Assembly: GCF_001592735.1 (NCBI RefSeq)
Contig: NZ_LUKE01000002.1
Coordinates: forward strand, 269,836 to 333,835
Source: Bdellovibrio bacteriovorus
GTDB taxonomy: Bacteria > Bdellovibrionota > Bdellovibrionia > Bdellovibrionales > Bdellovibrionaceae
DNA: 64,000 nt
Direction of reading: 5' to 3'
The notes below the pieces were generated by a model. That model was not told where the DNA came from. It ran no database searches and saw only the letters and a program-made list of their open reading frames with translations. The translations under genes were made by a program, and so were the position numbers. Numbering within the stretch: the stretch's first letter is position 1; each line of letters starts with the position of its first letter. This document shows, in pieces, positions 28,609 through 38,922 of the stretch.

Positions 28609-29195
28609 ATTTCTTACGTCGCCCCGATCGCATTCATTTCGACCTTAAGCCCAACTGCCTTTTAACTCGTTGGCCTGTCGTTTTTGTCACGGGCCCAAGA
28701 TCGCTATTTTACTTTCGCCGTTATTGGAATCTATATCCTATTTTTCTTGCCGAACATGGCTATGAAGTTTTCACCGTGCACCTACCGTGGCGATCCTCTG
28801 CGGCTCGACGCAAATACATGCAAGCCTTCTTAGAAAAACATAAAAACAAGAAATACCATTTCGTGATGGACTCCATCACTGCTCACGAAATGCAGGATCT
28901 TTTCGTCGGCACATCCACCGCCACCAGTGTCACAGAGTTATTAAACGCGGGCGCCACCACGAAGCTTCATGGATTTCAATTTCAACCCTTAGAAATGACG
29001 GTATGTAAGCAAGCTCCCGGCATCTTATTGAAATTTTCTTTTTGGCTGCATCAGAAGTTAATAGAAAATCCTCAAAGCCCCACCCTAGATACACTGGGGG
29101 CTCTTGAGGATTCGACGTTTGATAATTCTCGCCTTCTTTTATCCCACATGCAAAAGCTCGCGGAAGAAGACTATCAAGAAGACGCTACTTTATAG
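28605..29195 (+). CDS. Possible degenerate alpha/beta-hydrolase-like protein
   Basis: 196 residues, starting at GTG 28605; there is no in-frame ATG before the likely core. The segment PVVFVTGPRSLFYFRRYWNLYP followed by FLAEHGYEVFTVHLPWR resembles the first strands of lipase-type alpha/beta-hydrolases. Where a GxSxG nucleophile elbow is expected, the sequence reads FVMDSITAHEM, so the flanking glycines are missing and catalysis is doubtful. No signal peptide. It is translated after the barrel protein through a shared hairpin, and its 3' end overlaps that of the convergent chemoreceptor gene by 22 bases. Confidence 0.6.
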   Translation: MDFLRRPDRIHFDLKPNCLLTRWPVVFVTGPRSLFYFRRYWNLYPIFLAEHGYEVFTVHLPWRSSAARRKYMQAFLEKHKNKKYHFVMDSITAHEMQDLFVGTSTATSVTELLNAGATTKLHGFQFQPLEMTVCKQAPGILLKFSFWLHQKLIENPQSPTLDTLGALEDSTFDNSRLLLSHMQKLAEEDYQEDATL

Positions 29196-30994
29196 CTTGC
29201 GATTTCAAGCGGAGGCGTCTTCACCCACGAGGCTTTTGAGCCCAGAACCTCAGACTCTAAATTACCAATAATGCCGTTGAGATGATGCGATTCTTCGCAA
29301 AGATCTTTGGATGATGATGTCACCCTCTCAAGACCTTGTTGATTTTTCATTGATTCCGATTCGATATCATTTAAAGCCACCGAAATCTGATTGATCCCCG
29401 CACTTTGTTCGCCGGACGCCGTCGCGATTTCTTGAATCAAAGTATTTAGCTTTTGAATGTAGTTCATGATTTCTTTTAACGACGTGCTGGAACGAACCGC
29501 CCCGTCTTTACCATGGTCAATGATTTGCACGTTGTCATTCACAAGTTCATGGATTTCTTGGGCCGCTTGCGCACTCTTTTGGGCTAAAGCTCGCACGGCT
29601 TCGGCCACCACCGCAAATCCTTTCCCTTGTTCCCCGGCCCGTGCCGCTTCCACCGAAGCATTGAGTGCCAACAAGTTTGTCTGGAAAGCGATATCGTCAA
29701 TGATCGAAATCGTTTCAACAATTTTTTTACTAGAAACCGCGATGTCATTCATGGAAGACAACATCGTTTCCACCTCTTGACTGCCAATTTGGGCCGACTG
29801 ATGAGTCAGCTTGGCTAAGTCAGAAGCCTGGCGAGAATTTTCCGCCGTGGTTTTAATCATGCTGTTGATTTCTTCAACTGACGCCGCAGTTTCCTCAATG
29901 GCCGCCGATTGCGACGTCACCGAGTCATTCACCACCAAGGCGGTATCTTGAAGTTGGTTGCCGATATTCAACACCGAGGTCGAAAGATCACGCAATCTAA
30001 ACACGGACTTCAAAATGCGCTTAATGCTTCCACTGACTGAAACACCGACCACGATCGAAAATAAAATGGCAACAAAAAGAGCCAAGCCTGCAGAGTAAAG
30101 CGAAGAGCTGCGGTGGGATTTTAAGCTTGTTAAACGTTTATTTAAAAGAACATCCAATTCGGCCACCGACTGATACCACGATTTGTAACTTTGATCTAGG
30201 TTGGCAAAACCAGCCAGAGCAAACTCATCTTCCTTAACTGGCTCCCCGCGCGAAATTTTATCTAGCAAGGACGTAAATGCGTCCGTGGCTTTTTGCAGAT
30301 CACTGACGGCCATCGGGATATTTTGCTGCAAGGAGGGACTGGGCTCATAAAAGTTCTTATCTTCATTCAAAGAGGTCTGACTGTCGGCCGCGATACGGGC
30401 CATGTCGGATTCTTTTAAAAGGGCCGAATAAAGAGCGGCTTGAATACGAACAGCTTCCGTTTGGGGTGACGCAAAAAATTGTGCACGGTTGGACAGAATC
30501 GTTTGCAGACGATCTTGCATTTGCGGCAAGGCCAACAAAGTGATGTCCATGATATAGTAACTGTCCAAATCTGGATCTAAGATCAAGTTCGAGGTATCAC
30601 CTAAATGAGCAATACCTGTTTTGATCGCCCCGATCGCGTTATCCCAATCTTGGGCTTTGATGAATTTTTCTAGATCGGCCACGTTATCGCGTTTTCTTGA
30701 CGACAACCCTTCAGCCGTAAATTGCAGATCGGGACCGACCTCGGCCAACACTTTTTGAAAGGCCGAAAGCTTTTCATCCAACTTATTACTTTGAGTGGGT
30801 TTAAGCTTTGCCATCACCACTTCATGCAAAAGCTCTTCGTAAGGAAGCTGCAAGCGATTGCCTAAGGCTTCTTTTTCCCCAAACTCGATGTTCCCGGTTT
30901 CTGATTTGTACATCAGAAAGGTCAGGACCACGATCGGAACCGAAAATACCAAAACATTCAAAAATAACCTAATTCCCAAAGGGAGCTTTTTCAT
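29174..30994 (-). CDS. Methyl-accepting chemotaxis protein
   Basis: 606-residue chemoreceptor. ATG 30994 is preceded by GGAG; a TTG four codons upstream is less likely. The first membrane segment is near residues 8-26 and the second near 305-330 (GLALFVAILFSIVVGVSVSG). Between lies a periplasmic four-helix-type sensor domain of about 275 residues with a long helical spacer. The cytoplasmic signalling hairpin has the conserved tip IDDIAFQTNLLALNASVEAA and GKGFAVVAEAVRALAQKS. No C-terminal CheR-binding pentapeptide of the NWETF type is present. The ligand is not predictable. Confidence 0.93.
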   Translation of the reverse strand: MKKLPLGIRLFLNVLVFSVPIVVLTFLMYKSETGNIEFGEKEALGNRLQLPYEELLHEVVMAKLKPTQSNKLDEKLSAFQKVLAEVGPDLQFTAEGLSSRKRDNVADLEKFIKAQDWDNAIGAIKTGIAHLGDTSNLILDPDLDSYYIMDITLLALPQMQDRLQTILSNRAQFFASPQTEAVRIQAALYSALLKESDMARIAADSQTSLNEDKNFYEPSPSLQQNIPMAVSDLQKATDAFTSLLDKISRGEPVKEDEFALAGFANLDQSYKSWYQSVAELDVLLNKRLTSLKSHRSSSLYSAGLALFVAILFSIVVGVSVSGSIKRILKSVFRLRDLSTSVLNIGNQLQDTALVVNDSVTSQSAAIEETAASVEEINSMIKTTAENSRQASDLAKLTHQSAQIGSQEVETMLSSMNDIAVSSKKIVETISIIDDIAFQTNLLALNASVEAARAGEQGKGFAVVAEAVRALAQKSAQAAQEIHELVNDNVQIIDHGKDGAVRSSTSLKEIMNYIQKLNTLIQEIATASGEQSAGINQISVALNDIESESMKNQQGLERVTSSSKDLCEESHHLNGIIGNLESEVLGSKASWVKTPPLEIASYKVASS

Positions 30995-31187
30995 GCCGTA
31001 CTCCAAAGATAAATCCTAACCACATATCGAGATTTCTTTAGATTTGCTCGAGTCCAGAGGCCCAGACCTTCATCTGGTTTTGTTAAGATTTATTCATTAC
31101 AATGCAAATTAAACTTATATTTGTATAAACAAGACCTCGACTCATAGACCTTGCGCAAGGACCTAAGCCCATGCTGAAATCTAATTT

Positions 31188-31754
31188 ATGAATGACTATC
31201 GTGACGTGACACCTCGCCAACACACTGAAACTGTTAAGCATGTTTTTCGCTATGTGGTTGATTACCTCCGCCACCCTGTTGAAAAAATAAAAACTCTTCC
31301 GGACTGGAATTGGACCGTTTTATTAATCACGTTAATAGTTATCAGCATGGCTTCGGGTGTGATCACCGGTCTCGTTCCTCCCAGCTTTTTTCGAGTCATC
31401 GGTGGCATTATTATCTCGCCCATCGTGGGGGTGGTGACAACGGCCGTGGGTTCATTGACGATTTACTATTACTTTCAAGTCTTTGAAAAGCGCACGTGTT
31501 CGCTGCGCAAGATCTTTACTTTGCTTCTTTTTGCCAATATTCCATTTTTCATTTTTCAAGTAGGCTCGGAAATCATCCCACCGATCACTCTTGTGGGTTT
31601 TGCTTTTACCGCATTGCTCATGGCGGTGGGACTGACTGAAAACTTTCAGATGGATAAACGCCGTGCTTTAAGACTGGTGACGATTCTTTTTGCCATCGTC
31701 TTTATCATCTGGCTGTGGAACCGCATTGACATTTCACGCATGGATCGTTTTTAA
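31188..31754 (+). CDS. YIP1-family membrane protein
   Basis: 188 residues. A short N-terminal soluble part (VEKIKTLPDWNWT) leads into about five membrane segments: LLITLIVISMASGVITGLV, VIGGIIISPIVGVVTTAVGSL, IFTLLLFANIPFFIFQVG, ITLVGFAFTALLMAVGL and LVTILFAIVFIIWLW. The pattern, including loop residues F-R-V-I-G-G and a late R-R-A-L-R, resembles the Yip1/YIP1 family of unknown bacterial function. No clear RBS is present. A 12-base palindrome lies 28 bases upstream. Divergent from the chemoreceptor; its 3' end overlaps bphO by four bases. Confidence 0.75.
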   Translation: MNDYRDVTPRQHTETVKHVFRYVVDYLRHPVEKIKTLPDWNWTVLLITLIVISMASGVITGLVPPSFFRVIGGIIISPIVGVVTTAVGSLTIYYYFQVFEKRTCSLRKIFTLLLFANIPFFIFQVGSEIIPPITLVGFAFTALLMAVGLTENFQMDKRRALRLVTILFAIVFIIWLWNRIDISRMDRF

Positions 31755-32311
31755 GAAGCGCGCAGCCACTTTTCAAGTTTCATGAAAGTGTCCTGCGCGG
31801 CTTTAACGGCCAAGGCTCTTTCTTCGTTGGACAAGACATGGGCTTGCAGTTCTTTTAAAAATCCCTGCCACATTTTTCCCGTCATGGCGCCATAGCCATT
31901 AAAGAAATGACAAATCTCTTGGGGAAATCCCATTTTATGCAAATGCGCCGTGATCACCTGCCCACCCAGGCTAGATCCTTCAATCACATACAAGCCACCA
32001 TAAAGTTCAGGCCAAGAACTGTATCGCGGCAAATCTGCACATCGCGGTAACGCGGCAAGCGTTTTATCGTCGTGAAAATAAGAAAGATCTTTTTGCAAAG
32101 ACGGGGTTCTTTTTCGCAAAGGCATTTCTAGATTTTTAGTCTGCTGCGAAAAGGCGTCGGAATGAAGCTGCTCTAAGGGGCTATAAAAACCCCAAAACTT
32201 TTCCAGCAACTGACGATAGGCTTGGATCTCAATCTGGGGAAATAAAGGCATCGCCCCTTCAATAGATTTATGGTTCGCAGCGGTGGCTTCCCTTAATTGG
32301 GTTAAGATCAT
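31751..32311 (-). CDS. bphO: Biliverdin-producing heme oxygenase (BphO-like)
   Basis: 186-residue heme oxygenase that opens heme to biliverdin, the chromophore of bacteriophytochromes. The N-terminal helix LREATAANHKSIE carries the proximal heme ligand His14. The distal helix has the Gly-rich stretch GGLYVIEGSSLGGQVI. It is the last gene of a three-gene unit; its ATG overlaps the stop of the phytochrome (ATGA), so enzyme and photoreceptor are made together. Symbol assigned from context and family. Confidence 0.92.
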   Translation of the reverse strand: MILTQLREATAANHKSIEGAMPLFPQIEIQAYRQLLEKFWGFYSPLEQLHSDAFSQQTKNLEMPLRKRTPSLQKDLSYFHDDKTLAALPRCADLPRYSSWPELYGGLYVIEGSSLGGQVITAHLHKMGFPQEICHFFNGYGAMTGKMWQGFLKELQAHVLSNEERALAVKAAQDTFMKLEKWLRAS

Positions 32312-33876
32312 GACGGGCGCCCTTTAAGACTTTCCGTCAGCATGTCAATGGCCCCTTTTTTTACCAAAGCCGAATCGAACAAAACTTCCTTCATAAAGGA
32401 AACTCCATCAAGTTCATGAGAGCTCCAAGGGATGGACTGATTTTCAATTTTTTCTTGCCAAGATTCGAATGAGGCCCGGGGGTTGATCTGTCCGGAAAAA
32501 TTTTTCTTTTCAAGGCTTTTAACAGGGTCTCCTCCCCAAGTGATCATGCGCACCTGCTCAGGGCGGAAAATCATTAAAAGAGAGTCTTCTTTATCGTGAA
32601 TTCGCACCGCTAAAACCCCACAAGCCATCTTAAGTTTGCTGGCAATATCGGGCATGATAGTGGTCAAACTATTGATCGCAAAAACTTCTTTTTCTGTCTT
32701 TTTCATCTCATCGATGATTTTAGCATACAGATCTTTAAGTAAAGAACCAGCAGGAACCAATCCCGAAATATCTTGAGTTTGCGCATTGCAAATGGCAACG
32801 CCTGTCGCATTAAAAGTTTCCATTAGTAAAGCATGTTGCTTTAAAAGGCCCCCCAAGATGTCTTTAGAAATTAAAGTCATCTCAATAATCTTGCGCAAAC
32901 GAGCATCAAAAGAGGACCTCAATAAGTGCCCCTCAAGATCCTCCATCAAAGTGGCTTGCGATGAAACAACATCGGCAATCGCACAACAAATGGCGCGATG
33001 GGCGTTGGTCATGGTAAACGGTTTTGAACTATGGCAAGCAATAAGACCCCATAAGGAGCCTTTGACAATCACCGCAAACGACATGGAGCCTGCGACCCCC
33101 ATGTTTTTAAGATACTCGATATGAATCGGAGAAACCGACCGCAATCGAGAATCACTGAGATCCCAAACCTTCCCTGTTTCTGGATTTTCTTTGGGCTCAA
33201 TGGCCGAAATGTGACCTTGAGAATCCGTGATCAAACGCACTTTATTTCTTAAGTAAAGGTCCCGCGCAGGCTTAGGGATATCCGACGACGGAAAACGATG
33301 ATAAAGAAAGGAATGACTTCCCATCACGCGATCTTCGGCAATGACTTCACCATGCCAAGAAGGAGGTAAAAATCGATACATCATCACGCGATCTATGCCC
33401 GCCACTTGCCGAATATAGCGGCATGCAACGCTCGTCAAATCCACCACCGTGCGGGCCTCTTTAACCTCGGCCATAAAGTCTTGCAGAACATTTTGAGACT
33501 CGAAGAATTCGGCAGATTCACGCAAAGGTTCAAATTCTAATCCGAAGTAGTTTCCGCTGGAAAACATGTACACGTCAAATTTTGACTTGCCGATGGGGGT
33601 CGTCAAGTACATCCCCTTAGATCGCCAAGGGTGCTGCTTTTGAAGGGCCAGAATGTTCTGCACAAATTCTTCGGGCAAAACGTGCGAAAGTTTTGCGCCT
33701 AGAATATTTCTTTGTCCTAAATCCAGAACGGCCGCGACGTTTTTGGAAATCGCTTGAATCCTTTCGTCGGCGGAAAACATCATGAGGGCCCCATGACCTT
33801 GGACCGCCCCGGAAAGATGAATCTGCTCGTTATTACATTCCTGAAGATCGCCAATACGTAGACTGATTTCCGGCAT
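32308..33876 (-). CDS. bphP: Bacteriophytochrome photosensory module without output domain
   Basis: 522-residue PAS-GAF-PHY red/far-red photoreceptor. Cys14 in LQECNNEQIHLSG matches the biliverdin-binding cysteine of bacteriophytochromes. The GAF domain has RVMMYRFLP and the chromophore-pocket motif RFPSSDIPKPAR. The PHY tongue shows WGGDP and NPRASFESW (PRxSF motif). The protein ends about 50 residues after the tongue, so the usual histidine kinase is absent. Its ATG shares one base with the stop of the upstream CheB-CheR-kinase hybrid, and its stop overlaps bphO. Output is therefore likely through another protein, with the hybrid the obvious candidate. Confidence 0.93.
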   Translation of the reverse strand: MPEISLRIGDLQECNNEQIHLSGAVQGHGALMMFSADERIQAISKNVAAVLDLGQRNILGAKLSHVLPEEFVQNILALQKQHPWRSKGMYLTTPIGKSKFDVYMFSSGNYFGLEFEPLRESAEFFESQNVLQDFMAEVKEARTVVDLTSVACRYIRQVAGIDRVMMYRFLPPSWHGEVIAEDRVMGSHSFLYHRFPSSDIPKPARDLYLRNKVRLITDSQGHISAIEPKENPETGKVWDLSDSRLRSVSPIHIEYLKNMGVAGSMSFAVIVKGSLWGLIACHSSKPFTMTNAHRAICCAIADVVSSQATLMEDLEGHLLRSSFDARLRKIIEMTLISKDILGGLLKQHALLMETFNATGVAICNAQTQDISGLVPAGSLLKDLYAKIIDEMKKTEKEVFAINSLTTIMPDIASKLKMACGVLAVRIHDKEDSLLMIFRPEQVRMITWGGDPVKSLEKKNFSGQINPRASFESWQEKIENQSIPWSSHELDGVSFMKEVLFDSALVKKGAIDMLTESLKGRPS

Positions 33877-36800
33877 TACTCACCCTTCCCTTTAAGATGC
33901 AAGGACCACCGAGATAACATTTCTTTTAAAACATCAATGCGAATAGGTTTCGTCAAATAATCATTCATGCCCGCCTGCAAACACTTTTCCGCATCTCCGG
34001 ACATCGCATTGGCCGTGAGGGCGATAATAGGCAACTGCGAAGGAATAGTGGGATCTTTGCGAATCATGCGCGTCGTTTCATACCCGTCCATACCCGGCAT
34101 TTGCACATCCATCAATACCACATCGATAGGATTGGCTTTAAGAACTTGGATGGCCTCAAGCCCTCGGCCTGCTGGGTACACCTTGTGACCCAAGCGTTCG
34201 ATAAACAAGCGAATGACATTAAGACTTTCTTTATTATCATCCACCGCTAAAACATGAAGCTCTGTGGGGTCATCCAAATCTACGCGCATCAGTTGCTGAC
34301 GACGTTGTTTAGCTCTGATTTCTGATTGGGCCGCCGAATGCAATTTTACCGAAAACCAGAATGTACTGCCATGACCCTCTTCACTGTCAAAGCCCATGGT
34401 TCCTTTCATCATCTCCGCAATCTGACGAGAAATCACCAGTCCTAAACCTGAACCTCCAAAACGTCGAGAATGTCCAGATTCCACTTGCGAAAACTTCTGA
34501 AAAATCTTGCCGTGATCTTGTTTTTTAATTCCGATGCCGGTGTCTTTGACTTCAAAATAATATTCTTTTTCACCGGCAAAATCATAGTATCCCGGGCGCA
34601 CCGTGACGGTGACCTGGCCCTTGTCCGTAAACTTTAAAGCATTACCAACGAGGTTTACAAGCACCTGACGCAAACGCCCCGGATCCCCAACCACGAGCTC
34701 TTCACTTGGAAAGTCCATGGCCAATTCCAGCGCAATCCCTTTACTGCTAGCGCTACTCTCAAACATCCGAACGGACTCTTTAACGAGTTCTCGCAAATCA
34801 AATGTTTCGGCACTCAGTTTGATTTTACCCGACTCGATTTTACTAATATCCAGAATATCTTCGATCAGCGACAACAACGCCTTGCCGGAACGATCAATAC
34901 TGCCCACAAACTCTTTCTGATCTTCATCTAAATGCGTTTCTGAAAGAAGTGTCGACATTCCCAAAACAACGTTTAAAGGCGTGCGCAATTCATGGCTCAT
35001 CGAAGCTAGGAAATCACTTTTTGCTTCGTTCGCAACTTCGGCCGCTTCTTTAGCAATGCGCAAGTCATGCTCAATCACCTTGTGGGCGGAAATATCTTTA
35101 CATAAGACCGCCACACGATCCACACCATCAGAAACGACCGAGGAACGCAAAGGCACCACGGTGTATAAAAGATAAAGCTCTCGGGTGCCAGCAAACCAAT
35201 GATCTTCAAAGGTCACACTTTCATTGGTATTTAAGGCATACTCAAACATCTCATAAAGACGGGTCACGCGCTCTGGGGCCCGCGTTTGGCTTAAAGGACG
35301 GCCCAACAAAGGCCCTTCACTTTTTAGGATCTCTTCGGCAATCTTATTAAAATACTCCGGCACAAACTCGTTCTCTTGACGATGTAAAATCACCGCCATA
35401 TCCGACGTATTGCCTAGAATCGTAGAAAAAATGGCTTCCTTTTCCAACAATCGATCGGTTTGGGTGCGATAATCCGTGATATCAAAACCGATGGCTTGAA
35501 TTTCTAGGACCTCACCCGAGGCATCAAAGATTCCTTTTAAAATCCAACGAATCCATCTAGCCACGCCGTTTTTACGATACACGCGGTATTCTGATTGCAT
35601 GATCGGTTGGCGAGTTGAGATCGATGAAAGATCCCCTTGCACCTTGCCCATATCATGACGAGGTAAGAAGTTCTGAAAGAAAGAACCTTCCACGCTGCGA
35701 CCTGCGTCTGAGAAATGAACCTCAAAAAGATTGTTGGCATAAATCAACTCCCCTGAAGGCGTCATCCGGCAGACAAAGACAGCTTGATCTTCAATCAGAG
35801 CTTTATAACGGGATTCACTTTCCGCCAGTTGCGCCTGCATTTCCGTCTGCGCCGTGATATCCACCGCGATCATGCCGATCGCATAAGGCGTATCTTGTCG
35901 CCCTTCGTAAAGTGGAAATCGGCTGGAATAAAGCACCCGCTTTTTTCCATGACGATCTAAAACATCTTCACTTTGTCTTAAAGGATCTCCGCGGAACATG
36001 ACCTCTAAGTCCGCCTTGCGCATGGCACTTGCCATAGCATTGTCGAACAAATCTTGATCCGTGCGTCCCAAAACCTGATCCATAGAAAGATTGAAAAATT
36101 TTAAAAAGGTCGAATTCACCATCAGGTAACGTCCATGCGGATCCTTCATGCTGACCGGGCCAGTGAAACTTTCTAAGATCGCTCGCAGCTGAGTTTCACT
36201 GCGTTGAAGTTTTTGACGAGTTTTGGTGATAGCCGTTTCATCGATGAACACCAACGTGGCTCCCACGATTTTACGATTTTCATCGTAAAAAGGCTGGCAG
36301 CGCATTTGATAAACCGCATTCGCACCTTCACAAACAGTTTCAGATGTTTTTCCCTGTTCAATAGCTTCATTGACGTGTTTCTGAAAGTCCGGCAGCTCCA
36401 GGTAGGCTGAAACTTGAGCCAAAGATTTACCAATATGAGAGGTGTTTAAAGCGAAGATCTTTAGGACTTCCTGATTAAAGCGAACCACCTGTCCGGATTT
36501 ATCGACAACGACCAAACCCGCCCCAATACTTTCTTGAATGTTTTCCAAGCTGGTATTGGTTTCACGAAGCTGCTGACTTTTCATATTGAGTTCTTCGTTC
36601 ACCGTGGTCAGCTCTTCATTACCACTTTGCAGCTCTTCATTGGTGGTCTCTAACTCTTCATTGGTGGATTGCAGTTCTTCATTGGCCGATGAAAGCTCTT
36701 CGTTTAATGATTGCAATTCTTCATTGGCTACGCCCAACTCTTCGATCACCGTCTGAAGGTGTTCGCGAGTTGCAAAAAGTTCTTGCTCCATCTCTAAAAC

Positions 36801-38717
36801 ATGAGACGGCAACTCGTCCGCCGACAACGAGCGGCCGGCCGGAGCCGTCGACACATCTTCTCGGCGCGATTCAAAGCTGATTAAGAACAAAGAGTTCCTT
36901 GCGTCTCGAGAACTTTCTTCTGACATCATGCGCACGGCCATGCGAAACTGGGTCTTTTTACCCGAAGAAGTGTACCAATGACTAAAATGGATGTTCATAT
37001 CATCGGTGGCTCTTTTTAAAAGCATCGGCAATTCTATGCCCACCTGTTTTGGCAGAAGACTGATTAAACGGGAATCAGACTGAGAAGCAGAAAAAGAAGC
37101 AAATTCCGAGATATCCCCTAGGACTTGGACCATGTTAAGATCCTTATCTACAATCACCCCGCTGTGACCATAGTCTCTCAGTATTCTTAATAAACCCTTT
37201 TCTAAAAGCGAAGGTCCATTGGACTCGGGCCTGCGCCGTGCCGGGATGAACTCTGCCTTAGAGGTTGTTGAAAATCGATTCATCTGCAAACTTGAAGCGA
37301 CGTCATTCTTTTTATAGATTTTTAATTTTTTATCGAAGGTCTCAAAAAAAGTACTATCACTGCCCGGAGATTCCGATTTTCCTAAACACAAGTAACCAGA
37401 ATTTGTCAGGGCAAAGTGAAAGATCTCAAGGACCCGTTTTTGTAATTCGGGTTCAAAATAAATAAGGACATTTCGACAAGTCACTAAATCCAAACGAACA
37501 AAGGGTGGATTTTGAATCATGTCTTGCTTAGCAAAAACCACCATATCACGAATACGTTTTTGCAATTCGAATCGTCCATCGGAAAGTTTGGTAAAATATT
37601 TCCTTAAATAATCCTTAGGCAAGGCTAAGAGTGAATCAGAATCGTAAACCCCTTTACGTCCTTCGGCGATAGCATCTTGATCTAAATCCGTCGCAAAGAT
37701 TTTTACGGGGACGTTGCGATGAATCTTTTCCAAAGCTTCGCACGCCAGAATCGCCAGAGAGTATGCCTCTTCACCGGTCGCACATCCCGCGACCCAGATA
37801 CGCAAATCTTCCCCGGCACGTTTGGTGGAGATCTGAGTTTCCAGAATTCGTCCCAGTTCTTCAAAAACTTCCGCGTCCCTAAAAAAACTTGTCACGCTGA
37901 CCAGAAGCTCTTGAGATAAAATGCCCACTTCGCCGGGGGTCCGTTTTAAATACGCTAAATATTCGGACAAAGACTTACAGTGTACCTGCAGCACCCGACG
38001 CCACAAACGACGCTGCAAAGTGGAGGGTTTGTACTGAGAAAAATCACTGCCCGTTTTATCGATAAGAATTTTTAGGCACTCTTTCCATTCGGGCGTATTT
38101 AACAAGTCGGCTTTTCGCTCTTGAATATGCTCTTCAATCAAGCTCGCCAAGGTTCGACCCATTTCATCAGGCGACAGAATCACATCCACGCAAGCGGTAT
38201 CAATCGCTGCCTGAGGCATCCCATCATATTTCGCCGAAAAGCCATCTTGGGCCAAGGTCAAACCACCCGCGTGATGAATCGCTCTGATCCCTTCAGATCC
38301 ATCAGATCCCGTTCCTGAAAGGATAATACCGACACCGTTCTCTCTCCAAAACTGACCTAAAGAAATAAAAAACGTGTCAATAGATGGAATGGGTCGTTTA
38401 TCAATATCTGATTCTTCCAGAAACAAAGATTTATCATCGACGCGGATATTCATATTCGGTGGAACGATGTAAATATGGCCTTTTTTTAATCGCGCTTCGT
38501 GAGTGGCCGCGATAACGGGAATCTTGCTTTGCTTTGCAAGAAGCTCTACCAGCATGCTTTTACCATGGGGTGCTAAATGCTGAGCCACTATCAACGTGTC
38601 TGAAAAGTCTTTTGAGATATTAGAAATAAGAGATGTCAACGCCTCAAGACCGCCAGCTGAAGCGCCCACTCCAATCAGTCTTTTCGGGGAATTTTCCACG
38701 GGTGTTTTACTGGGCAT
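33876..38717 (-). CDS. CheB-CheR-PAS-histidine kinase-receiver hybrid
   Basis: 1613-residue multidomain signalling protein. The CheB methylesterase domain (about 10-195) keeps Ser20 (GASAGG), His47 (AQHLAPHG) and Asp139 (GTGSDGSEG). The CheR methyltransferase (about 215-480) has WVAGCATGEEAYSLA and CRNVLIYF. A PAS-like segment is followed by a regular coiled coil (about 646-726) of repeated N-E-E-L heptads. About four PAS domains follow (730-1235), then HisKA with His1242 (SHELRTPLN), HATPase (LVNLVGNALKF, GLGLVISRQIAE) and a receiver with Asp1537 (VLMDVQMPGMDG). GGAGG precedes the ATG. It is the first gene of the light-sensing operon. Such fusions usually act outside classical chemotaxis. 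Confidence 0.93.
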   Translation of the reverse strand: MPSKTPVENSPKRLIGVGASAGGLEALTSLISNISKDFSDTLIVAQHLAPHGKSMLVELLAKQSKIPVIAATHEARLKKGHIYIVPPNMNIRVDDKSLFLEESDIDKRPIPSIDTFFISLGQFWRENGVGIILSGTGSDGSEGIRAIHHAGGLTLAQDGFSAKYDGMPQAAIDTACVDVILSPDEMGRTLASLIEEHIQERKADLLNTPEWKECLKILIDKTGSDFSQYKPSTLQRRLWRRVLQVHCKSLSEYLAYLKRTPGEVGILSQELLVSVTSFFRDAEVFEELGRILETQISTKRAGEDLRIWVAGCATGEEAYSLAILACEALEKIHRNVPVKIFATDLDQDAIAEGRKGVYDSDSLLALPKDYLRKYFTKLSDGRFELQKRIRDMVVFAKQDMIQNPPFVRLDLVTCRNVLIYFEPELQKRVLEIFHFALTNSGYLCLGKSESPGSDSTFFETFDKKLKIYKKNDVASSLQMNRFSTTSKAEFIPARRRPESNGPSLLEKGLLRILRDYGHSGVIVDKDLNMVQVLGDISEFASFSASQSDSRLISLLPKQVGIELPMLLKRATDDMNIHFSHWYTSSGKKTQFRMAVRMMSEESSRDARNSLFLISFESRREDVSTAPAGRSLSADELPSHVLEMEQELFATREHLQTVIEELGVANEELQSLNEELSSANEELQSTNEELETTNEELQSGNEELTTVNEELNMKSQQLRETNTSLENIQESIGAGLVVVDKSGQVVRFNQEVLKIFALNTSHIGKSLAQVSAYLELPDFQKHVNEAIEQGKTSETVCEGANAVYQMRCQPFYDENRKIVGATLVFIDETAITKTRQKLQRSETQLRAILESFTGPVSMKDPHGRYLMVNSTFLKFFNLSMDQVLGRTDQDLFDNAMASAMRKADLEVMFRGDPLRQSEDVLDRHGKKRVLYSSRFPLYEGRQDTPYAIGMIAVDITAQTEMQAQLAESESRYKALIEDQAVFVCRMTPSGELIYANNLFEVHFSDAGRSVEGSFFQNFLPRHDMGKVQGDLSSISTRQPIMQSEYRVYRKNGVARWIRWILKGIFDASGEVLEIQAIGFDITDYRTQTDRLLEKEAIFSTILGNTSDMAVILHRQENEFVPEYFNKIAEEILKSEGPLLGRPLSQTRAPERVTRLYEMFEYALNTNESVTFEDHWFAGTRELYLLYTVVPLRSSVVSDGVDRVAVLCKDISAHKVIEHDLRIAKEAAEVANEAKSDFLASMSHELRTPLNVVLGMSTLLSETHLDEDQKEFVGSIDRSGKALLSLIEDILDISKIESGKIKLSAETFDLRELVKESVRMFESSASSKGIALELAMDFPSEELVVGDPGRLRQVLVNLVGNALKFTDKGQVTVTVRPGYYDFAGEKEYYFEVKDTGIGIKKQDHGKIFQKFSQVESGHSRRFGGSGLGLVISRQIAEMMKGTMGFDSEEGHGSTFWFSVKLHSAAQSEIRAKQRRQQLMRVDLDDPTELHVLAVDDNKESLNVIRLFIERLGHKVYPAGRGLEAIQVLKANPIDVVLMDVQMPGMDGYETTRMIRKDPTIPSQLPIIALTANAMSGDAEKCLQAGMNDYLTKPIRIDVLKEMLSRWSLHLKGKGE

Positions 38718-38864
38718 TCACGATCCTCCGAAACGAAGCCTGGGGACAACTTTATCAGACTTCCGGCGCAGAGTCTCGGTATATACGCACACAGTCCCTC
38801 TTCTGCCTTTGGTCAATTTCGTGGATGTAATTTAAAAGTTTTTTGTAGAAATGCAAAAAAATAA

Positions 38865-38892
38865 AAAAGATGGCGTTTGCCATCTTTTTTTT
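38865..38892 (-). terminator. Terminator downstream of dut
   Basis: AAAAAAGATGGC and GCCATCTTTTTT form a 12-base stem with a four-base loop, 30 bases past the dut stop. Both flanks are A/T-tracts so it can work on either strand; only minus-strand transcription arrives here. Confidence 0.85.
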
Positions 38893-38922
38893 AAACTTGC
38901 TTTGCTTTATCCGAACTTAAAT

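Follow-up and report, generated by a model that had tools for sequence, protein, structure and literature searches.

Phytochromes are usually described as covalent sensor-output proteins. What, then, does a phytochrome that ends without an output domain signal to? We addressed this question at a locus of Bdellovibrio bacteriovorus lying within a 64,000-nucleotide stretch of contig NZ_LUKE01000002.1 (positions 269,836 to 333,835; assembly GCF_001592735.1), the whole of which is referred to here as the window. A preliminary sequence-only reading had placed between positions 31751 and 38717 three genes overlapping by one to four bases, and had proposed that an output-less phytochrome is coupled there to a neighboring CheB-CheR hybrid. 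The three open reading frames (ORFs) lie at these coordinates, all on the minus strand:

33876 to 38717, minus strand: CheB-CheR-PAS-HisKA-HATPase-REC hybrid (CheBR hybrid), 1613 amino acids (ORF, Pfam)
32308 to 33876, minus strand: output-less bacteriophytochrome, PAS-GAF-PHY, 522 amino acids (Pfam, AlphaFold, Foldseek)
31751 to 32311, minus strand: heme oxygenase of the BphO type, 186 amino acids, which makes biliverdin (Pfam PF01126)

At the hybrid/phytochrome junction, GAGTAATG, a single base is common to the TAA stop and the ATG start (TA-ATG), and the phytochrome and heme oxygenase genes overlap by 4 bp (ATGA), as the reading had it. Neither the ORF list nor Pfam revealed a separate receiver gene in the trio, which thus differs from a classical bphO-bphP-bphR set, with its phytochrome kinase and separate cognate response regulator. 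Comparative evidence from the sequences makes it likely that the phytochrome is a detached, trans-acting light-sensing subunit of the adjoining CheB-CheR-PAS protein.

The evidence that carries this interpretation is gene adjacency. All 12 intact output-less (orphan) phytochromes that could be placed lie beside a CheBR gene (9 in Bdellovibrionota, 2 in Pseudomonadota, 1 in Bacteroidota), versus 2 of 72 longer phytochromes, which bears out the proposed coupling; the Fisher test gives 8e-13, a value to be taken as an effect size because the sequences are related. Of the 80 loci returned by a profile search of genome contigs, 72 were the longer phytochromes and 8 were orphans, each from a Bdellovibrio-like bacterium; sampling Bacteroidota, Campylobacterota, Planctomycetota and Pseudomonadota for PHY domains yielded 3 further intact orphans. 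The two longer phytochromes with an adjoining CheBR gene are both from Campylobacterota (L105, 6959-12874; L122, 6959-12980); each has its own GGDEF or kinase output and is directly followed by a roughly 1100-residue CheB-CheR protein whose C-terminal half is unannotated.

The pairing was followed in 369 Bdellovibrionota genomes, from which short phytochrome frames were fetched and annotated. A PHY domain occurs in 27 of them, and in 8 genomes besides that of the window (G142, G195, G083, G084, G206, G217, G248 and G157) an orphan phytochrome follows a CheB-CheR hybrid, so that the survey suggested by the sequence-only reading was positive for the pair. Wherever the neighbors were readable (9 of 9), the orphan stands directly beside a CheBR gene or its C-terminal end, and in most pairs the two genes overlap or almost touch; the hybrids of G084 and G206 are interrupted by contig ends, their N-terminal parts lying on other contigs. 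The proteins of these 8 genomes are mostly 35-50% identical to those of the window, and less so in G157. Eight of the nine partner hybrids are of one type, the exception being G157. There (L038, 3232-9807) a CheBR-HATPase protein and a separate histidine kinase (HK)-REC protein stand together with an orphan phytochrome from a different lineage; by its sequence, this is an independent version of the same gene set.

CheBR fusions as such are far more widespread: searching with the CheB-CheR portion recovered them in 75 of the 369 genomes, the top matches (44-53% identity) being the phytochrome-paired genomes. As a control we read 40 further CheBR loci, four of which (G207, G216, G206 and G084) hold paired-type fragments at contig ends. 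No phytochrome lies directly beside CheBR in the remaining control loci; in G069 a full-length phytochrome is found about 6 kb away. Both an orphan phytochrome and a CheBR gene are present in G207, each at a contig end; no orphan was found in G216, a genome 64% complete. A tree built on the CheB-CheR portion groups all paired-type hybrids in one clade (support 100/99) together with the hybrid of L063, a Silvanigrellales metagenome-assembled genome (MAG); the phytochrome tree unites the orphans of those genomes in a single clade, separate from full-length phytochromes (SH-aLRT 96-98).

In the other phyla the pair recurs with different outputs. The Bacteroidota locus L211 reads heme oxygenase, phytochrome, CheBR-PAS-HK; of the two Pseudomonadota loci, L213 reads CheBR-PAS-GGDEF-EAL, phytochrome, and L212 reads CheBR-PAS, GGDEF-EAL, phytochrome, heme oxygenase, with the phytochrome one gene away from CheBR. 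That the GGDEF-EAL unit is separate in L212 and fused in L213 supports one shared pathway. The recurrence in 8 further Bdellovibrionota genomes and two other phyla argues that the arrangement is not due to chance. Moreover, L211, the L212/L213/G157 group and the window's group lie apart in the phytochrome trees, which indicates that the pairing originated, or was reassembled, repeatedly. Taken together, the pairs across phyla suggest a recurring two-protein light switch. Throughout, the partner has a CheB-CheR-coiled coil-PAS core, and its output is HK-REC, HK without REC, GGDEF-EAL, or absent (L063, L212).

The window phytochrome has the photosensory core of a bacteriophytochrome. Pfam assigns PAS_2, GAF and PHY (329-504) to the 522-residue chain, which stops 18 residues past PHY, and its AlphaFold model (mean pLDDT 81.9) matches in Foldseek the photosensory modules of PsBphP, Agp1 and DrBphP (E about 1e-41 to 1e-39), with TM scores against known bacteriophytochromes mostly of 0.7-0.8. 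The NCBIfam BphP model matches at 3.5e-76, but its 257 bits fall below the cut-off of 1040. Two features of the gene map as follows:

33835 to 33837, minus strand: codon of the biliverdin-ligating Cys14 (alignment with known phytochromes)
32323 to 32421, minus strand: C-terminal signaling helix, residues 486-518 (AlphaFold, tail alignment)

In the alignment, the bilin pocket (Cys14, D199 as the Asp of SDIP, His252 and His282, Tyr167/Tyr255) and the tongue (W447 and PRxSF, 466-469) are retained, and neither Pfam nor the tail alignment detects an output domain, so that no kinase or GGDEF domain is covalently attached; both the intact motifs and the missing kinase had been read correctly from the sequence. 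The helix at 486-518 stops where canonical phytochromes continue into the kinase DHp helix, and the chains of orphans from other lineages stop close to this position. The window's genome has no other PHY domain. The bilin and tongue residues are common to the other orphans, except in G195 (L035, 9025-10614, minus strand), where the ligating Cys is replaced by Tyr and one pocket Tyr by His; the CheBR partner is retained there and heme oxygenase is absent nearby.

The hybrid likewise contains the kinase, receiver, methylesterase and methyltransferase parts first ascribed to it, with active-site residues intact. Pfam assigns CheB (15-190), CheR_N and CheR (217-461), several PAS domains, HisKA (1232-1297), HATPase (1344-1459) and REC (1489-1601), and the parts map as follows:

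38148 to 38675, minus strand: CheB methylesterase, residues 15-190, with S20, H47 and D139 (Pfam, alignment)
37335 to 38069, minus strand: CheR methyltransferase, residues 217-461, with R280, E317, D344, N416 and Y420 (Pfam, alignment)
36522 to 36821, minus strand: Glu-rich signaling coiled coil with NEELQS heptads, residues 633-732 (AlphaFold helix)
35088 to 36548, minus strand: PAS region of about four PAS folds, residues 724-1210 (Pfam)
34341 to 35024, minus strand: HisKA and HATPase_c kinase, residues 1232-1459, phospho-acceptor H1242 (Pfam)
33915 to 34253, minus strand: C-terminal receiver, residues 1489-1601, with D1537 and K1590 (Pfam)

With CheB and then CheR on one chain, followed by the NEELQS coiled coil, PAS, HisKA-HATPase and REC, the protein is a CheB-CheR-PAS hybrid kinase. 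The catalytic CheB and CheR residues are present in every CheBR protein aligned, and H1242, D1537 and K1590 are invariant among the paired hybrids. Those of the window's type share one architecture at 42-50% identity (6 full-length paired orthologues). Their conservation peaks in the coiled coil (76% mean pairwise identity), a single 100-residue helix in the AlphaFold model, compared with 69% in HisKA and 33-42% in the PAS region. Pfam finds no N-terminal receiver ahead of CheB. Since CheB is usually activated by phosphorylation of its own receiver, the window CheB needs another control input, and the phytochrome could serve as such.

The proposed mechanism would proceed as follows. Biliverdin from the heme oxygenase would load the phytochrome, and upon red/far-red photoconversion the PHY tongue would refold and the C-terminal signaling helix turn. 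Phytochromes signal via this helix, which in the window protein is a free C-terminus; given also the missing CheB receiver, we infer that the helix docks in trans on the coiled-coil/PAS region of the hybrid. The docked helix would bias the opposing CheB and CheR activities in response to light and, via the same PAS-helix relay, the kinase-receiver output as well. The methylated substrate might be the glutamates of chemoreceptors or another target.

The best-surviving alternative, which we nevertheless consider unlikely, is that the phytochrome replaces a covalent sensor and mainly controls the HisKA-REC kinase, with CheB and CheR as passengers or kinase tuners. The kinase and receiver are indeed intact and HisKA is well conserved in the paired hybrids, the PHY helix feeds a histidine kinase in classical bacteriophytochromes, and the L211 partner has HisKA-HATPase too. 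However, L213 and L212 have GGDEF-EAL instead, leaving CheB-CheR-coiled coil-PAS as the common denominator, and L063 keeps the pair without any kinase. In L063 the CheBR protein stops after two PAS domains, lacking both kinase and receiver, and the phytochrome gene still overlaps it by 4 bp (ATGA); the bond with the phytochrome thus appears to have outlived the kinase. The next gene downstream, on the opposite strand, is a CTP-synthase-like ORF, so named from its sequence. Because partners elsewhere have HK without REC, GGDEF-EAL or no output (L063, L212), the kinase probably serves as one of several exchangeable outputs and is neither the essential target nor the conserved recipient of the signal.

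A second alternative, which we regard as improbable, is that the phytochrome acts on kinases or receptors elsewhere, for instance a methyl-accepting chemotaxis protein (MCP), and adjoins the hybrid through a shared wider chemotaxis pathway. An MCP gene (29174-31006) does lie about 0.7 kb beyond the heme oxygenase gene and, like the trio, is absent there in congeners; the kinase domain of Ppr, a phytochrome-like protein of Rhodocista, binds CheW (PMC2993699). In relatives, by contrast, no MCP is conserved beside the pair, whereas CheBR always is, and the MCP was rejected as an obligatory partner on that ground. That the phytochrome itself is the CheR/CheB substrate, its methylation giving light adaptation, is very improbable, even though opposing CheB and CheR are the constant part of every partner.

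Several observations weigh against a light-sensing subunit of CheBR proteins. CheBR proteins often occur without a phytochrome, as in the control loci and in a CheBR-EAL protein of Shewanella, and must have other inputs too. Judged from its substituted residues, the G195 lineage may be blind or have another chromophore arrangement, so that light sensing is possibly not universal. The counts cover related sequences, and independent pairings number about three or four. L063 is a single MAG (it stands outside the 12 orphans, and adding it gives 13/13), and many of the surveyed genomes are MAGs with contig ends.

We also considered a broader proposal, in which output-less phytochromes balance CheB against CheR as a general class, and glutamate methylation, possibly in the coiled coil of the hybrid, stores a light memory that gates exchangeable outputs (a kinase or a cyclic di-GMP (c-di-GMP) enzyme). 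All scannable paired Bdellovibrionota hybrids of the window's type, L063 included, have a match to the chemoreceptor methylation consensus in the coiled coil (SSANEELQST at residue 676 in the window). The sequence is of low complexity, a match is also present in a good share of the unpaired relatives, and L211-L213 have none; we regard this proposal as improbable.

The tight coupling of the trio held for the phytochrome and hybrid, and less so for the heme oxygenase. The third gene is a clear family member (PF01126, 3.6e-19; 69.8 bits against a cut-off of 23), and such a gene is close to the pair in 5 of the 9 Bdellovibrionota loci: it is adjacent in the window and in G142, and G248, G083 and G084 have it upstream or on the opposite strand. 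None was found near the pair in G195, G217 or G157, and the G206 contig is too short to judge. From these gene orders, heme oxygenase is a looser member of the set than the other two.

Compared with known systems, the window phytochrome shares with DrBphP, PaBphP and Agp1 the PAS-GAF-PHY order, biliverdin Cys, SDIP/PRxSF motifs, fold and linked heme oxygenase gene (bphO), but lacks a covalent output, stops before DHp and has a separate CheB-CheR hybrid as its partner. The hybrid has the same domain order (CheB-CheR-NEELQS coiled coil-PAS-HK-REC) as other CheBR fusions with PAS and kinase domains; such fusions are noted in genome papers for Rhodospirillum centenum (RC1_3878) and Geobacter (cheBR) (PMC2890560, PMC8396549). 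The other fusions examined are unpaired, whereas the window hybrid's clade stands beside an orphan phytochrome wherever the neighbor is readable. Ppr of Rhodocista/Rhodospirillum centenum is also a bilin-binding photoreceptor tied to chemotaxis proteins, but is a single PYP-bilin domain-kinase polypeptide acting via CheW/CheAY rather than CheB-CheR. Phytochrome-GGDEF proteins (Idiomarina, 5LLW) likewise place a c-di-GMP enzyme under phytochrome control, by covalent fusion, compared with the trans arrangement of L213, where the orphan is linked to CheBR-GGDEF-EAL. In open-licence papers on phytochromes with CheB/CheR, output-less phytochromes and CheB-CheR fusions, which is weak evidence, we did not find the pair described. 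The significance of the locus is that phytochromes have more than once been severed at this one helix and linked to a CheB-CheR scaffold on another chain. The searchable literature is nearly silent on the function of CheB-CheR-PAS fusions, which are common; with a light-switchable partner, their substrate and logic could be tested directly. If the proposed interaction is correct, a trans-acting red-light module would also be of use in optogenetics for controlling methylation, kinase or c-di-GMP output.

The history of the locus was assessed by tblastn synteny, which delimits one further feature:

31755 to 38922, no strand: inserted block between a Yip1-like gene and dut (tblastn synteny)

Ten congeners have the Yip1-like gene and dut as neighbors with no trio between them, and in G142 the trio is far from dut, at a different chromosomal position, indicating that it was inserted as a unit. 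Its base composition is unremarkable. Within the genus, just 2 of the 24 genomes carry the trio, which points to an accessory function rather than a general predator trait. The MCP gene (minus strand) is absent from its spot in the 10 congeners too, and the Yip1-like gene is thus flanked by two lineage-specific insertions. GGAGG lies directly 5' of the hybrid ATG, and a promoter scan gave matches at chance level only. Between dut and the hybrid, a perfect hairpin with a T-run (38863-38890, minus strand) is likely a terminator parting the trio from the upstream dut transcript.

Some short frames were rejected as orphans. Those in G352, G333, G207 and G878:C6 end at contig ends, and an unannotated 565-residue frame of Methylobacterium FF17, followed after one stop by an in-frame 281-residue frame, was taken as a broken full-length gene. 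Two short phytochrome-like frames in G918 were discarded as unpaired orphans, their PHY domains being incomplete; one adjoins a separate GGDEF gene, the other carries GGDEF, and by sequence they look like degraded phytochrome-GGDEF proteins. Near a broken phytochrome-GGDEF gene of G918 lies a ribonucleotide reductase gene with a LAGLIDADG intein (L214, 9879-13139). In G151 (L209, 7986-11912) the Yip1-dut gap holds a different insertion of about 4 kb, encoding a beta-propeller-like protein and a 519-residue protein of no assigned family; the gap may be an insertion hotspot.

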